This document shows positions 1 through 9,782 of a DNA stretch of 34,144 bases, piece by piece (the first letter of the stretch is position 1; every line of letters starts with the position of its first letter). Source of the DNA: Helicobacteraceae bacterium 4484_230 (GTDB taxonomy: Bacteria; Campylobacterota; Campylobacteria; Campylobacterales; Sulfurimonadaceae); the NCBI GenBank assembly GCA_002085085.1, contig MZGN01000006.1, forward strand, positions 1 to 34,144, given 5' to 3'. Both the position numbers and the translations under genes were made by a program. A model generated the notes under the pieces. The model was not told where the DNA came from. It saw only the letters and a list, made by a program, of their open reading frames with translations, and did not search any database.

Positions 1-633
1 AATACCGAATTTGTCGAAGGCTTCTATGCTGCAGGTGAATGTTCATGTGTCAGCGTCCACGGTGCCAACCGTCTTGGAGCCAATTCGGTTCTTGAAGCAC
101 TTCTGTTTGGCCGGTATGTAGGCAAGACAATGGTGGAAGATGTTGACAAAATCGAACTTAAAACTGCTACGCAGGCCGATGCCCAACGCATGCTTGAAGA
201 AGTTGAGTGGGTATTGACAAATAACGGACAGGAGAGTGTTCCTCGGCTGCGTGACGAACTACAGCAGAGTATGACGGATAATTCCGGCGTCTTCAGAACC
301 AAAGAGACTCTGACAAAACAGATGGAGATACTCAAAGACCTTCGTGAACGATACAAAAATATCCGCATAGAAGATAAATCCAACATATTCAACACCGACC
401 TTCAGGAAGCCTTGGAGCTTGGTCATATGCTGGACTTTTCACTTTTCATAACCAAGAGTGCCCTTTCACGCGAAGAGAGCCGTGGAGCACACTATCGTGA
501 AGATTTTCCACAACGCGACGACAAGAAATTTTTGCACCACACTATGGCCTACATGGATGAAGAGGGCAATATAACTCTTGATAAAATGGATGTCGTTCTC
601 GGCAAGCATGAGCTTAAAGCAAGAAACTATTAA
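1..633 (+). CDS. sdhA: Fumarate reductase / succinate dehydrogenase flavoprotein, SdhA/MfrA type (3' part only)
   Basis: The reading frame is open from base 1 and ends at TAA 631-633, so only the last 210 residues are present; the ORF-track start at 130 is an internal Met. The visible part opens with GFYAAGECSCVSVHGANRLGA, the conserved FAD-binding end of the flavoprotein. It continues into the helical C-terminal domain with SALSREESRGAHYREDFPQRDD, the family's conserved Arg/His segment. The subunit catalyses fumarate/succinate interconversion at FAD and passes electrons to the iron-sulfur subunit. sdhB starts 9 nt downstream and sdhE follows, which points to the SdhABE (8-methylmenaquinol:fumarate reductase) class of Campylobacterota rather than classical Sdh. 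A Tat signal would lie in the missing N-terminus, so location (periplasm or cytoplasm) cannot be read here. Confidence 0.9.
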   Translation, partial: NTEFVEGFYAAGECSCVSVHGANRLGANSVLEALLFGRYVGKTMVEDVDKIELKTATQADAQRMLEEVEWVLTNNGQESVPRLRDELQQSMTDNSGVFRTKETLTKQMEILKDLRERYKNIRIEDKSNIFNTDLQEALELGHMLDFSLFITKSALSREESRGAHYREDFPQRDDKKFLHHTMAYMDEEGNITLDKMDVVLGKHELKARNY

Positions 634-642
634 GGAGCCGAT

Positions 643-1623
643 GTGAGTGAGACAATAACAACAAAAAAAGTTACTTTTAAAGTCTTCCGCTTCAATGCGG
701 AGACTGACTATCTTCCTTATTACAATGAATATAAAATGGATGTCACGTCGGAAGAGGTGGTACTTGACATCCTTAACCGTATCAAATGGGATCATGACGG
801 AAGTTTTTCATACCGCAGAAGCTGCAGACATGGTATCTGCGGAGCCTGTGCGGTAACAGTAAACGGACGTGCAACGCTCGCATGTAAAGAGAATCTGCAT
901 GGACTGATGGATCTTTTCGGAGACGAACTTACCATCGAACCGCAGAGTGTCAAACGTGCTGTCAAAGATATGATAATCGACAAATCAGATTTCTGGGAAA
1001 AGCATGACCAGATACAGCCTTATCTTATCAGCCATATCGAAGAGCACCCGGAAATGGAGTGTGCCGTTTCACCCGAAGAGTCTGAACAGCTTCTTGAAGC
1101 AGACCTTTGCATACAGTGCGGTGCCTGCCACTACGCATGTCCAGTCGTTGAAGTCAATGAAGACTACATCGGTCCTGCCGCTTTCGTAAAAGCATACCGT
1201 TTTGAGGCAGATGTACGGGATGAGGCCCATGTCGCCAGACTTGAAACTGTTAGTGCCCCTTCACAGGGTGTCTGGGACTGTGTCAAATGCTTTGAGTGTG
1301 CAGAAGCATGCCCGAAAGATATCAACCCGATCGAAAAGATCACAAAACTGCACAATATGCTCTTTGAAGAGCGCGTCTTTAAAAATCCTGTTGCTGAACG
1401 TCATGCAGTCGGTTTCCAGCACTCTATCGCGAGACACGGTCTGTTGGATGAAGGTGAACTGGTTCGGTATTCAGAAGGCAATATAGGCGTTCTCAAACAT
1501 GTTCCGGTAGCAATCAAAATGTATAAAAAAGGCAAAATAGTACTGCCTTGGAATATGCCAAAATCCGACAAGCTTGACGAGATCAAAAAGCTTATCGAAT
1601 CATCATCGACATCGAACTATTAA
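643..1623 (+). CDS. sdhB: Fumarate reductase / succinate dehydrogenase iron-sulfur subunit, SdhB/MfrB type
   Basis: 326 residues from a GTG start with AAGGAG six bases upstream; the ATG at 641 is out of frame. The N-terminal plant-type ferredoxin domain carries [2Fe-2S] ligands Cys61, 66, 69 and 81 (CRHGICGAC, then VNGRATLAC). The C-terminal dicluster domain has CIQCGACHYACP (Cys156-166) and CVKCFECAEACP (Cys213-223). The protein relays electrons between the SdhA flavin and SdhE. At 326 aa it is longer than FrdB of the frdCAB operon in this window (249 aa), and it has a C-terminal tail past the last cluster. The N-terminal stretch FNAETDYLPYYNEY recurs in recognisable form in the odd protein at 4963-6192. 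It is co-transcribed with sdhA (9-nt gap) and sdhE (11-nt gap). Confidence 0.93.
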   Translation: MSETITTKKVTFKVFRFNAETDYLPYYNEYKMDVTSEEVVLDILNRIKWDHDGSFSYRRSCRHGICGACAVTVNGRATLACKENLHGLMDLFGDELTIEPQSVKRAVKDMIIDKSDFWEKHDQIQPYLISHIEEHPEMECAVSPEESEQLLEADLCIQCGACHYACPVVEVNEDYIGPAAFVKAYRFEADVRDEAHVARLETVSAPSQGVWDCVKCFECAEACPKDINPIEKITKLHNMLFEERVFKNPVAERHAVGFQHSIARHGLLDEGELVRYSEGNIGVLKHVPVAIKMYKKGKIVLPWNMPKSDKLDEIKKLIESSSTSNY

Positions 1624-1634
1624 GGAGCGCCGAC

Positions 1635-2522
1635 ATGGGAAAACTACAATACGCACTATTTACCGGATGTACGGCGAAAGAGAGTACGCCGGAACAGCTT
1701 AAATCTACCTACGCAGTTGCTGAAAAACTGGGTATAGAACTGATTGAGCTTAGCGAAGCCAGCTGTTGCGGTGCTTCACACCTGCAGGATTACGATGACT
1801 TTCTGTCACTTGTTCTAAATGCCAGAAATATCTGCTATGCAGAGTCCAGAAACATGACTATGGTAACGATCTGCAACACCTGTCAGCTGAACACGGCTAT
1901 GACTAAGCACAGACTCGACAATGATCCTGAGCTGAAAGCACGCGTCAATGAAAAACTTGCAGAAGTAGGACTGGAGTACAAAGGTACATCACAGATCACC
2001 CACTTTCTGTATGCAATAATAGACGACTTTGGGCTTGATAAAATAAAAGAGATGGTTGTAACACCTCTTAGTAAATTCAACATAGCGCCATTTTACGGAT
2101 GCCACAATATCCGCCCTTCCGAACTTCAGAACGAATCACACAAGAATCCGGAAAATCCGTATGTGCCTACATCCCTCGATGATCTTATCATCGCATGCGG
2201 CGGTGTTAATGTGGATTATGAAGAGAAGAACAAATGCTGCGGCTTCCATGTTGAGCTTCAGGCTCCAAAAACTGCGGCAATTCTTACCGGTAATGCCCTT
2301 AAAGGTGCCATTGACCAGAATGCAGACTTGATGGTCACTCCGTGCCCTCTGTGCCATTTGAAACTTGATACCCAGTACGGACATGCCTCTCATGCGGTAG
2401 GACGCGATGTAAAGATGCCTATACTTCATATGCAGCAGATGGTCGGCCTTGCCCTTGGCTGTACACCGGACGAACTGGGACTTGAACATAACCTGTACGG
2501 CAAAGTACCCTTCCCGGCCTGA
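1635..2522 (+). CDS. sdhE: SdhE/MfrE: heterodisulfide-reductase-B-like (CCG domain) subunit of the fumarate reductase
   Basis: 295 residues; ATG 1635 has GGAG upstream. Two complete CCG domains are visible. The first has GC12, CC44-45G and CNTC (80-83). The second has FYGC, CCGF and CPLC in the C-terminal half. In HdrB and SdhE proteins these cysteines bind unusual [4Fe-4S] clusters, so the subunit takes the place of a haem-b membrane anchor and links SdhAB to the (methyl)menaquinol pool. No transmembrane segment is obvious; membrane contact would be peripheral, as known for the family. The second CCG domain (FNIA...CCGF...AVGR...MPI) is the template that the cluster-less protein at 4963-6192 resembles. 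The stop codon lies in the loop of a GC-rich hairpin. Confidence 0.9.
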   Translation: MGKLQYALFTGCTAKESTPEQLKSTYAVAEKLGIELIELSEASCCGASHLQDYDDFLSLVLNARNICYAESRNMTMVTICNTCQLNTAMTKHRLDNDPELKARVNEKLAEVGLEYKGTSQITHFLYAIIDDFGLDKIKEMVVTPLSKFNIAPFYGCHNIRPSELQNESHKNPENPYVPTSLDDLIIACGGVNVDYEEKNKCCGFHVELQAPKTAAILTGNALKGAIDQNADLMVTPCPLCHLKLDTQYGHASHAVGRDVKMPILHMQQMVGLALGCTPDELGLEHNLYGKVPFPA

Positions 2523-4962: not shown

Positions 4963-6192
4963 CTATATGAACGATACGGAGACTCTGTGCCTATCATCAA
5001 TACCAAGTTCTTTTTTATCGGCAATGCCGGCAGAAAGCACAACAAGCTCAGCAAGCGTCACTATCGGCATAGGAATCTCTCTTCCAACCGCATTTTGACA
5101 CTTGCTGCCCAGTTGATCAAACATTTCGAAAGCTTCATCCGAATCTACGACAAGAATATCTGCAGAGTTGTCAAATGCATCCACAAGTATATTTCCGGCT
5201 TTTTTATAGGCTATCTCCGGTGCATTATCTTTAATCCCAAAGCCGCACGCCCTGTCACTTAGATCAAAATCCACAATACCTCCGCCAACTGCCTTTATAA
5301 CACTTCCAGCGCACTCATATGTACTCTTATCGGCTCTGCTTCCGCAATAAAAAGCAATATTGAAATCCTTAAACGGATGCTTTACGGCATCGGCAACAGT
5401 TTCAACGCCTATCTTTGAAATTAGATCAAGAGCGTCCTCTGGTTCATGCTCGGCATTGAAATGGGATGAGAGAATTTTTAAAGCAGGATCTTCCTGTTTC
5501 TCTTTTTTACCAGGCAGGACATTTTTGCACTTATCCATAATAAATTTGACCGGTGCCATCTGCTCGGTATTTACCAGCAAATTCTCTTCTATCAGCTGTT
5601 TCAGCTCATCGATGATTTCGCTTATATCTACCGAGGGGTATTGATTGTTTTCATATTCATAAAGCCCGATACCGTTCTTTTCGTCCGAGATAATCTCAAG
5701 TATCTCTTTTTTATGCTCGCTGCCGTTCTTTATAAGACGGTGTGCCAGAACAAAAAGAGAGTCGCCGAAATAGTCTCTGTTGTATTTGAGTGTTTCTGAA
5801 GCATAGTATGTCGCATAAAGCGTTCTGTAGAACTTCAAATCATCTTCACTGCAAAAGGCACTGAGGTTCTCATACTTTTGCATAAAATCGTCATCATTGA
5901 AACGCAGACAGTTTGTAGATCTGTAGATGGATGCAGGCTCTATCTTTATTCTGTTTCCAAATACTTCTACGATTTCCGACAGCTTTATTCTTGCATCAAG
6001 AAGCTTTGAATTTATCTGCACTATCGTCTTTATTTTTGGGTATTCAAAAGTCGGTTCCATCTCCTGAACACTCTTAAGCAGATCTTTTATATTTTTTGAT
6101 CCGTCTATTTCCAGATCAAAGGATCTGTAAAAAGGCAGATAATCCAGTTTTGAATCAAAAAAATAGAGTTCGGCATTTATTTCAACATTCAT
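4963..6192 (-). CDS. Cluster-less SdhB/SdhE-like chimera of unknown function, downstream of frdCAB
   Basis: 409 residues; ATG 6192 is preceded by AGAGGATGGG. Residues 1 to ~115 align by eye with SdhB of this window: FDSKLDYLPFY vs FNAETDYLPYY, then VEVFGNRIKIEP vs MDLFGDELTIEP. The segment that would hold CRHGICGAC is deleted. A middle, probably helical region (~115-270) has no SdhB dicluster motifs. From residue 277 it aligns with the second CCG domain of SdhE: FNIAFYCG, GGGIVDFDLSDRACGFG, NAVGREIPMPI and a C-terminal ELGIDD. However, CCG has become ACG and the CPLC segment is VVDSDEAF. It is therefore a fusion of an SdhB-like and an SdhE-like part that should bind no cluster. I believe uncharacterised proteins of this kind (DUF5644/HdrB-C-like names) exist in Campylobacterota but cannot verify it. 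It lies 109 nt after frdB, same strand. A maturation factor, decoy or regulator are guesses. Confidence 0.75.
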   Translation of the reverse strand: MNVEINAELYFFDSKLDYLPFYRSFDLEIDGSKNIKDLLKSVQEMEPTFEYPKIKTIVQINSKLLDARIKLSEIVEVFGNRIKIEPASIYRSTNCLRFNDDDFMQKYENLSAFCSEDDLKFYRTLYATYYASETLKYNRDYFGDSLFVLAHRLIKNGSEHKKEILEIISDEKNGIGLYEYENNQYPSVDISEIIDELKQLIEENLLVNTEQMAPVKFIMDKCKNVLPGKKEKQEDPALKILSSHFNAEHEPEDALDLISKIGVETVADAVKHPFKDFNIAFYCGSRADKSTYECAGSVIKAVGGGIVDFDLSDRACGFGIKDNAPEIAYKKAGNILVDAFDNSADILVVDSDEAFEMFDQLGSKCQNAVGREIPMPIVTLAELVVLSAGIADKKELGIDDRHRVSVSFI

Positions 6193-6301: not shown

Positions 6302-7051
6302 CTACTTCCCTATCTCAACCATTTTTCTGCGCAGATATGCTATCTTGGACTGCAATGGAAGATCTTTGGGGCATACATCCTCGCAGCCCAGAAGTGTCAT
6401 ACAGCCAAACACACCATCTTCATCACCGACCAATTCATAATAATCCTTATTACTTCTTTTATCACGAGGGTCAAGCTGATAACGGGCTATCTTGTTCATC
6501 CCGACGGCACCGACAAAATTCTCACGCATCTGAATGGTACCACACCCTGCAACACAGCAGCCACACTCCACACAGCGGTCAAGTTCATATATTTCTTCAG
6601 CAAGCTCAGGCTCCATGCGTTCTTCAAGCTTATGTACATCTATCTCTTCCTGGGCATGTATCCAGGTCTCAAGCCTTTCATTTAAACCACGCATCCACCT
6701 GCCGGTATAGATCGAAAGGTCACCGATCAGCTCAAAAAACGGCAGAGGGGCTAGCATGATCTCAGGGTCCAGTTTGGCTGTCAGCGTCCTGCACGCCAAT
6801 CCGGGACGGCCGTTTATAAGCATTGCACAACTACCACAAATACCCGCACGACAGACAAAATCAAATTTCAAAGAAGCATCATAATGCTCGCGAATATCAT
6901 TAAGTACAATAAAAAGTGTCATACCTGGAGCTTCTTCGATCTCGAAAGTCTCTATGTGCGGCTTGTCGCCTTTTACATGAGGATCATATTTTAATATACT
7001 TATTTTAAGCAGTCTTGCTTTTTTATTTTCCACTTTTTGCTCCTTTATCAT
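6302..7051 (-). CDS. frdB: Quinol:fumarate reductase iron-sulfur subunit FrdB
   Basis: 249 residues, close to Wolinella FrdB (~239). [2Fe-2S] ligands appear in [21 protein letters not shown]. The dicluster domain has [11 protein letters not shown] and, later, [15 protein letters not shown], giving the [4Fe-4S] and [3Fe-4S] sets. It carries electrons between the FrdC haems and the FrdA flavin on the cytoplasmic face. Its start codon overlaps the frdA stop by 4 nt (ATGA), indicating translational coupling. It differs clearly from the longer SdhB at 643-1623, so the two are separate enzyme classes rather than a recent duplication. Confidence 0.95.
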
Positions 7052-9039
7052 ATAAGAGGTTCATTCAGGCGTTCATTTCTTCCGCGGTACTTTTCTGGAA
7101 GAAGCTCTTCATAGTGCATCAGCGCACGCTGCACTTCAAAACGGTCAAGCCCCTCTTCTTCCACCTCTACACGTATCTGATCGACCTGCCTCTGGCGTAT
7201 CTCGCTCTTTGGGTGGCGGATCGTCATATCTTTGCCGTATCCACGAAACCCGGGAGGAAGCTCCATCGTATCGATATCTATCTCTTCGTAACTTACAGTT
7301 GGCATTGTCTTGTCCGGATCGTCCCATCTCATAATGGTTCTTTTAAGCCACTCTTTGTCATTACGCTCAGGGTAGTCCTCACGGGCATGTGCACCACGGC
7401 TCTCCGTGCGCAAAAGCGCACCGTATGCCACTGTCAAAGCAACTTTTATCATTCTTTTTGTTCTGTATGCATTTACCAGAGCAGGGTTCGCGGCCAGTGA
7501 TTTTGATCTGAATACCTCTATGTTGTGGCTCCTGAAAAGCAGCTGCTCCAGCTCTTCTACCGCCTTTTTGAGATCTTTGCCGTTACGGAAGATCCCGACT
7601 TTTTCCATCATGATCTTTTCCATTGCGCGCCGAAGCACATAAGCATCTTCACCGTTCTTGTTGTGAATAAATCGCTCAAGTCTCTGCTGCTGGTCATTGA
7701 CAAAATGCTCGATCACGGAAGTGTGTATGTTAATACTGCTCTCTTCACTGTCGCAAAAATCTGAAATATACTCGGCAACCAGCATTCCCGATACAACTGT
7801 TTCGCTTACAGAGTTTCCTCCCAGGCGGTTAAAACCGTGCATATCCCAGCAAGCGGCCTCTCCACATGCATACAGACCTTTAAGTGTCTGTGATTCACCT
7901 GTATATTTTGTACGGATACCGCCCATCGAGTAGTGTTGTGTCGGGCGGACAGGGATCCACTCTTTGGCAGGATCTATCCCCAAAAAGTTCTCACAGATCT
8001 CTTTTACTTCACGAAGGTTTTTCTCTATATGCTCACGTCCCAGTATCGTAATATCAAGCCAGAGATGATCTCCGTAGCGAGACGGCACCCCTTTTCCCTT
8101 TCTTATATGTTCTGTCATTCTTCTGGATACAACATCACGTGAGGCAAGCTCCTTTTTCTCCGGTTCATAATCCGGCATGAAACGGTAACCGTCTACATCA
8201 CGCAGAACACCTCCGTCTCCACGACACCCTTCAGTAGTCAAAATACCTACAGGAACGATGGCTGTAGGGTGAAACTGGATCGCCTCCATGTTTCCCAGTG
8301 TGGCAACCCCGGTTTCAAGTGCAATAGCCTGCCCCATACCCTGGCAGATAACGGCATTTGTAGATACACTGTATATTCTTCCGTATCCGCCGGTCGCTAT
8401 CGTCGTTGCTTTGGCTATGTAAGCAACCAACTCACCTGTCATCAGGTTGCGTGCCACGGCACCGTAACAGCGCTTGTTTTCATGTATAAGCGCGATCGCT
8501 TCGAGCCGCTCATGCACCTCTATCCTGTCTTCATGTGCTTTGTTATCCATTGCAAAAAGCATACTGTGACCGGTACCGTCCGAGGTGTAGCAGGTACGCC
8601 ACTTCTTGGTTCCACCAAAGTCCCGTGCGGTAATCAGCCCGTGTGCTTCGCTTTTTTCATTTATAGTTACTTTCTGTGCATTGATGATGGCAGTATGGTC
8701 ACCCTGCCTTACCCTGTTCCACGGCACACCCCATGCAGCCAGTTCACGGATCGCTTTTGGGGCGGTATTTACAAACATACGCACCACTTTCTGATCCGCA
8801 CCCCAGTCACTGCCTTTTACAGTATCTTCAAAATGGATATCTTCATTGTCGCCTTCACCCATTCTGCAGTTACCCAAACTTGCCTGCATCCCGCCCTGAG
8901 CAGCGGCGGAGTGTGAACGTTTCGGCGGAACCAGTGTTAACACAACTACATCGTGTCCGCGTTCCTTGACTCCGGTAGCAGTACGAAGCCCTGCAAGACC
9001 TCCACCTATAACCAATACATCTGTATAAATAATATTCAT
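7048..9039 (-). CDS. frdA: Quinol:fumarate reductase flavoprotein subunit FrdA
   Basis: 663 residues, about the length of Wolinella FrdA (656). The N-terminal FAD motif [12 protein letters not shown] is followed by [11 protein letters not shown], whose His is the covalent FAD attachment site. The fumarate site is visible as [11 protein letters not shown], the catalytic Arg region [13 protein letters not shown] and HYSMGG. The C-terminal domain has [16 protein letters not shown]. The subunit reduces fumarate to succinate, as used in anaerobic respiration or the reductive TCA cycle. Its ATG overlaps the frdC stop by 4 nt and its stop overlaps the frdB start by 4 nt: a tight frdCAB operon as in Wolinella. 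Confidence 0.96.
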
Positions 9040-9782
9040 TTTTGCACCTGCTTACCTGCATGCTCGACAGAGTGATAGCGCTCACCGACATGACCCTGAT
9101 GTTCAAACCCTATTTTCATATATGTTGCAATACTCAACAGCCCAAGCGTCATAAAAAAAGCTATAAAACCATACTGGAACTTTTTCAGGATCTGTCGGCT
9201 CTTTTTTGCATTTTTACCTTCAAACCAGCCCCACTTGAGACATAAGCGGTATGAGCCGATACCGGCATGCAATATAACCGCTATCAACAGCAGTAAAAAC
9301 AACGGCCACATCCATTCTGATACCATTCTGTCCGATGAAGCATAAGGGCCAATATCCCCGGGTTGACTCATAACGATATAGAGATGAACCGAACCCAGGA
9401 AAAACATCACAAAACCTGTAACTATCTGGATGAACCATGTTGACGTATCCGTATGCCTGAATGATTTCATATGGTTTCGAAATATTCTGTACTGTCTATA
9501 ATTTGAAGGGAACTTCCTTATGGCAACCAGCGCATGAAGGATAAAAACGGCAAAAATAAAAAAGCCCAACACTGCAATAAGAAACGGGTATCTCTCACCC
9601 AGGAAATAGTATCCCTCAAAAAATACGGTCATCGCATACATAGACTCTTTGCCAAAAAGAATACTGGATTCAAAAAACATATGAGCCCAGATAAACAGCG
9701 CAAGTATTAAACCGGTAGCGCTCTGTATAAAATCCAGACGTGCCGGAACTTTGTTGATTTTATGATTATTTTTTGCATTCAT
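9036..9782 (-). CDS. frdC: Dihaem cytochrome b subunit FrdC of quinol:fumarate reductase, with Ile at the Glu-C180 position
   Basis: 248 residues and five membrane helices. From memory of Wolinella succinogenes FrdC the two align without gaps from the first to the fourth haem histidine, with an offset of 10. His34, 83, 133 and 172 correspond to the four axial ligands His44, 93, 143 and 182. Glu56 corresponds to Glu66 at the menaquinol site. [11 protein letters not shown] and [10 protein letters not shown] are nearly identical. The exception is AVILHAG, where Wolinella has AVELHGS: Ile170 (codon ATA, plus positions 9273-9275) replaces Glu C180 of the proton-conducting E-pathway. The protein anchors FrdAB and oxidises menaquinol. 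Upstream is AGGGGT at a somewhat long spacing and a -10-like TATAAT. The first gene of frdCAB. Confidence 0.95.

Follow-up and report, generated by a model that had tools for sequence, protein, structure and literature searches.

The window analysed here (34,144 nucleotides, contig MZGN01000006.1 of Helicobacteraceae bacterium 4484_230, taken as a whole) carries a frdCAB operon whose cytochrome b subunit has Ile at the position of Glu C180, the E-pathway residue of the Wolinella succinogenes fumarate reductase. Replacement of this Glu by Gln in Wolinella abolishes growth on fumarate (PMC6175931). How, then, does an enzyme that naturally has no acid at this position couple its chemistry to protons and to the membrane potential?

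A Wolinella-type anchor with Ile at position 180

The genes of the operon, in the order frdCAB, are as follows:

9036..9782, minus strand: frdC, dihaem cytochrome b anchor of complex II, I180/E48/Q213 type (NCBIfam NF010072, PDB matches, AlphaFold model)
7048..9039, minus strand: frdA, flavoprotein subunit (NCBIfam NF006383, 1159 bits)
6302..7051, minus strand: frdB, iron-sulfur subunit (NCBIfam NF010071, 412 bits)

FrdC has 248 amino acids and scores 336.6 bits against the fumarate reductase cytochrome b subunit family NF010072, for which the cut-off is 187. It is about 54% identical to W. succinogenes FrdC, with which it aligns free of gaps (window residues 7-229, Wolinella residues 17-239). 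The AlphaFold model (pLDDT 88) has the five-helix dihaem anchor fold, with 2bs4_C as the top fold match (TM 0.86, rmsd 1.8), and the PDB sequence matches are 2BS4, again the best, and 1QLB. 2BS4 is the Wolinella enzyme with an E180I mutation made in the laboratory, and the statement in an earlier note, made from the sequence alone, that an Ile variant had been produced in Wolinella is thus correct. The alignment and the codon positions likewise bear out the Ile at C180, the offset of 10 between the two numberings, and the retention of the four haem ligands and Glu66, all of which that note had claimed. The residues concerned, in Wolinella numbering, are listed here:

9690..9692, minus strand: Ile at C41 (Met in 130/131 E180-type proteins), of the co-varying set; coordinates from the reading frame
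9681..9683, minus strand: His44, distal haem ligand, retained; codon reading
9669..9671, minus strand: Glu at C48 (window Glu38, codon GAA; Val in Wolinella), accompanying the loss of Glu C180; column comparison and codon reading
9615..9617, minus strand: Glu66, quinol-site acid, retained (in 214/214 FrdC, window included); codon reading and column counts
9534..9536, minus strand: His93, haem ligand, retained; codon reading
9384..9386, minus strand: His143, haem ligand, retained; codon reading
9273..9275, minus strand: Ile180 (window Ile170, codon ATA) at the position of Glu C180; alignment and codon reading
9267..9269, minus strand: His182, haem ligand, retained; codon reading
9264..9266, minus strand: Ala at C183 (Gly in 127/131 E180-type proteins), of the co-varying set; coordinates from the reading frame
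9174..9176, minus strand: Gln at C213 (Lys in 128/131 E180-type proteins); column counts, coordinates from the reading frame

The window protein therefore has the complete set of haem-ligand histidines without the C180 acid of an E-pathway QFR, and in lacking that acid it agrees with the electrogenic dihaem SQRs. In the AlphaFold model, residue 180 falls midway along helix V (159-184) and residue 213 early in helix VI (192-227), while C48, four residues or one helical turn past His44, is near the end of helix I (12-43).

A sequencing error or a pseudogene was considered and rejected. Separately assembled congeners and relatives share Val or Ile at position 180 (Val in L002 and L003, Ile in L004 and L083) together with Glu48, and comparison of the window frdC with that of L002 gives a dN of 0.09 with dS saturated, which indicates purifying selection. 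Downstream of frdB, at 4963-6192 on the minus strand, is a gene for 409 amino acids, the C-terminal domain of which is SdhE/HdrB-like, and there is a weak match to DUF5644; the other loci compared showed no close relative of it next to frdB.

An acid exchanged between positions 180 and 48

FrdC genes collected from public genomes yielded 214 distinct sequences, and these allowed position 180 to be scored across the Campylobacterota, as the earlier note had proposed. Glu is present in 131 and a non-acidic residue in 83 (Val in 70, Ile in 12, Thr in one). The window protein is thus not the single unusual case that it had been taken for, and a change unique or private to one lineage is rejected; Sulfurovum-like and Hydrogenimonas-labelled genomes generally lack the acid, as does much of the window's own family.

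Column-by-column comparison of the E180 proteins with the V/I180 proteins pointed to C48, where the acid of the window protein had previously been missed. Seventy of the 83 non-acidic proteins, that of the window included, have an acid at C48 (Glu in 69, Asp in one) and the other 13 have Thr, as against Val or Ile in 130 of the E180 proteins and Thr in one. Not one of the 214 distinct sequences has acids at both positions. The 13 proteins with neither acid, 12 of them V/I180, come from FrdCAB operons or from an orphan frdC. The pattern amounts to an alternative state of FrdC, widespread in the Campylobacterota and linked to a set of co-varying residues. In a large group of vent and sediment bacteria that oxidise sulfur and hydrogen, FrdC has lost the acid by which protons cross the membrane and gained another near the opposite face, and the relocated acid may affect whether the membrane voltage drives the enzyme.

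Several loci in the collection stand apart. A third state, T48/V180, occurs in L251, L252, L253, L254 and L255, at about 35-39% identity to the window protein; these have complete frdCAB operons in genomes that lack ATP-citrate lyase and the SdhABE-like complex described below. The Wolinella frdC itself, read in genome G483 (locus L256), is E180 and V48. Downstream of frdB in the same locus is an orphan second frdC (L256:4871-5629, minus strand), in which C48 and C180 are both Thr and which has no adjacent flavoprotein of its own. Campylobacterota-like E180 frdC genes also occur on contigs labelled Thiorhodospira, Marinimicrobia, Arenicellales, Planctomycetota and Rubrivivax (L015, L023, L028, L060, L063 and L075), through either transfer or mis-binning.

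Positions that change together with 180

Among 22,791 column pairs ranked by corrected mutual information, 41-180 comes first and 48-180 second, and the co-varying set also takes in 183 and 213. Lys213, near-universal in the E180-type proteins, is found in none of the 70 acid-48 proteins. The module in full comprises positions 41, 45, 48, 180, 183, 213 and 220.

Such a module might simply set the potential of the distal haem or fit the enzyme to another quinone, for example methylmenaquinone, with proton coupling not under selection. Most of the changed helix I positions do flank His44, and residues 36, 37, 40 and 41 of the Desulfovibrio gigas enzyme (Wolinella 42, 43, 46 and 47) line its menaquinone pocket (PMC6175931). 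Tuning of this kind does not predict the mutual exclusion of acids at 48 and 180, and we consider it quite improbable as the explanation.

Repeated switching and apparent exchange of frdC

In a tree of FrdC built from all columns, the V/I180 proteins form one large clade, with two further cases nested among E180 proteins. These, L010/L132 (E48, V180, R213) and L047 (D48, V180, Q213), are independent switches, and their closest E180 relatives have V48 and K213. When the eight trait columns were left out, the best tree no longer joined the two main V/I groups, and four to five changes were needed, three of them forced by well-supported branches. An AU test made with the same columns removed rejects a single clade for all non-E180 sequences (p = 0.011); one for the main V/I group alone is not rejected (p = 0.38). 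Together these results support at least three joint 48/180 switches, and the main group may have had one or two origins. In the FrdA tree, all six informative independent pairs are opposite at the two sites (p = 0.03); these are not counted as proof, because exchange of frdC moves both sites together.

Exchange of this sort appears to have taken place in Sulfurimonas. Between L008 (E180) and L122 (I180), FrdA is 90% and FrdB 85% identical, but FrdC only 52%, as compared to 81% for FrdC between L008 and L006, both E180; frdC would thus have been swapped beneath a conserved frdAB. The FrdA and FrdB trees require the FrdC type to have changed about nine times, and well-supported branches force six to eight of these changes. 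In the case of G009 (L011; L130:4946-11807), an E180-type and a V180-type frdCAB operon lie convergently, side by side on one contig, and G013 likewise has both FrdC types in one genome. It is conceivable, though we hold it somewhat short of an even chance, that Campylobacterota complex II has two interchangeable coupling states (E180/V48/K213 and V or I180/E48/non-Lys213) that evolved repeatedly, with lineages such as Sulfurimonas toggling by frdC exchange under conserved frdAB from an electroneutral fumarate reductase to a membrane-potential-coupled enzyme.

An acid that has moved, and not merely been lost, in 70 of 83 proteins, that is never doubled, and whose joint move occurred at least three times is what a functional substitute would produce. 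Glu48 could then have replaced Glu180 as the redox-coupled proton carrier by the distal haem, with protons reaching the cytoplasm in another way and the enzyme remaining electroneutral. The simultaneous loss of Lys213 argues otherwise, suggesting that the cytoplasmic half of the pathway was abandoned; the placement of Glu48 near the end of helix I (window residue 38) and the 13 proteins with neither acid also count against a rerouted pathway. This is the main rival to the explanation that we favour, and the other proton route named in the earlier note remains live in this form, since loss of the C180 acid is matched by the acid at C48; on balance we think it rather unlikely.

A second complex II and the metabolic setting

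The window also encodes part of a second complex II, at 1-2522 on the plus strand:

1..633, plus strand: flavoprotein of the second complex II, C-terminal part, cut by the contig end (Pfam PF02910, TIGR01812)
643..1623, plus strand: iron-sulfur subunit of the second, SdhABE-like complex II (family and homology searches)
1635..2522, plus strand: SdhE/HdrB-like cysteine-rich (CCG) subunit of the second complex II (PF02754; NF042965 at 227 bits, below the cut-off of 500)

The assembly, assigned to the Campylobacterales, is 65.9% complete, in 141 contigs, and has one FrdC. With the SdhABE-like iron-sulfur subunit scored as present at 60% identity or more to the window copy, it was found in all 33 acid-48 genomes tested, in two T48 genomes that are Nitratifractor-like, in roughly half of the E180 genomes, and in none of the nine from genera g27 and g30, which have a T48/V180 FrdC. 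Of the 41 complete V/I180 genomes in these families, 39 encode ATP-citrate lyase, and the acid-48 genomes are predicted to be mostly rTCA autotrophs. The enzyme was not found in the window genome or its congener, both of them incomplete, and is absent from six tested T48/V180 genomes of g27 and g30. Scored against position 180, as the earlier note had suggested, neither trait is the deciding one: the SdhABE association runs in one direction only, and ATP-citrate lyase, near-universal in V/I180 genomes, is common in E180 ones as well.

Dihaem FrdC is missing altogether from 102 of the 151 genomes sampled in the window's own family (two thirds). The FrdC-less members tested have ATP-citrate lyase together with the second complex (SdhABE-like iron-sulfur subunit in 6/6), and the dihaem enzyme is therefore dispensable for their reductive TCA cycle and unneeded for their fumarate reduction. 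In Hydrogenimonas-like genomes (L034, L049, L152 and L153), the second complex II adjoins a V180-type frdCAB, with FrdA about 36-40% identical. The eighth position of the FAD motif, reportedly Gln in SQR and Glu in QFR, gives no direction, as it is Gln in both groups (107/107 flavoproteins in which the motif was found).

The prevalence of ATP-citrate lyase could also mean that the altered enzyme runs reductively for CO2 fixation, a very reduced menaquinone pool turning fumarate reduction into a coupling site that conserves energy. By established redox potentials, the step from menaquinol to fumarate yields energy that at best roughly matches the membrane potential, and the FrdC-less relatives do without such an enzyme, carrying the SdhABE-like one. 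FrdABC has been described as bidirectional in this phylum (PMC6682613). We regard an electrogenic fumarate reductase as improbable.

Proposed proton coupling without the E pathway

The explanation to which we give about an even chance is that the window FrdCAB is a Wolinella-family dihaem complex II with a dismantled E pathway, working electrogenically and mainly as a succinate:menaquinone oxidoreductase driven by the membrane potential. Ile takes the place of the mid-membrane relay Glu180 on helix V, and Gln that of the conserved Lys213, presumably on the cytoplasmic side; helix I has a new carboxylate, Glu48, one turn past His44 and probably nearer the periplasm. Residues are assigned here to one or the other side of the membrane by the Wolinella topology. 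Proton exchange for the quinone reaction would then involve the periplasm alone, and electrons would cross by way of the two haems, making turnover electrogenic. Since menaquinol oxidation by fumarate gives little energy, such an enzyme should mostly oxidise succinate, pulled by the membrane potential as in the Bacillus SQR, with fumarate reduction covered by the SdhABE-like second complex II.

We infer the electrogenicity, the direction and the role of Glu48: Glu180 and Lys213 have gone together and an acid has appeared close to the distal haem, on what is presumably its periplasmic side, a change most simply read as a closed route to the cytoplasm. The strict exclusion of the two acids and their repeated joint switching, the complete absence of Lys213 from acid-48 proteins, the regular presence of the SdhABE-like subunit in their genomes and in FrdC-less ones, and the electrogenic SQRs known to do without the E pathway all count for an electrogenic succinate oxidiser. 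Against it, the exclusive swap could equally mean that Glu48 does the job of Glu180, rTCA autotrophs need fumarate reduction, and SdhABE, found in many E180 genomes, is not diagnostic; the sequences with neither acid and the nine g27/g30 genomes lacking the SdhABE-like subunit count against it too. The argument that proton coupling must be altered by an Ile occurring naturally at C180 holds, and electrogenic operation and service mainly as a succinate dehydrogenase are the best supported of the four options first offered for it.

Most of the support for the E pathway hypothesis comes from a small number of mutants engineered in a single species. The two FrdC states amount to a replicated natural experiment over hundreds of genomes, including closely related pairs with different residues at the key sites and two genomes, G009 and G013, in which both enzymes occur. 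Naming C48 and C213 opens to direct test the question of what makes complex II either spend or conserve membrane potential. As a warning for annotation, genes labelled 'fumarate reductase' in vent autotrophs may encode enzymes that run in reverse.

Comparison with known systems

The closest known system is the Wolinella QFR FrdCAB (1QLB, 2BS2), which has in common with the window the family, fold, operon order, four haem histidines, Glu66, Arg162 and Lys193. It differs in having E180, V48, M41, G183 and K213 where the window has I180, E48, I41, A183 and Q213, and the engineered Ile of 2BS4 is the natural residue of the window protein. The QFR of D. gigas (5XMJ; 32% identity in the fold match) also has a dihaem anchor, with Glu60 as the equivalent of Glu66; unlike the window protein, it retains an acid at the C180 position, Glu C164, and has Glu C193 in addition (PMC6175931). 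The second complex II of the window matches SdhABE, the 8-methylmenaquinol:fumarate reductase (Mfr), in its subunit types. It scores far below the Mfr family cut-offs and is without a dihaem anchor.

The literature searched, the scope of which excluded subscription papers, among them the main Lancaster papers, makes no mention of C48, C213 or an acid exchange, and that on Gram-positive dihaem SQRs describes no Glu48 switch. Loss of the C180 acid as such is already known from Gram-positive SQRs, the sequence families of which (B. licheniformis SQR and M. smegmatis Sdh2) differ from that of the window FrdC. M. smegmatis Sdh2, like the window protein, has no acid at the C180 position (PMC7447783), and the B. 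licheniformis SQR, which makes no use of the E pathway, is electrogenic (PMC10308238).
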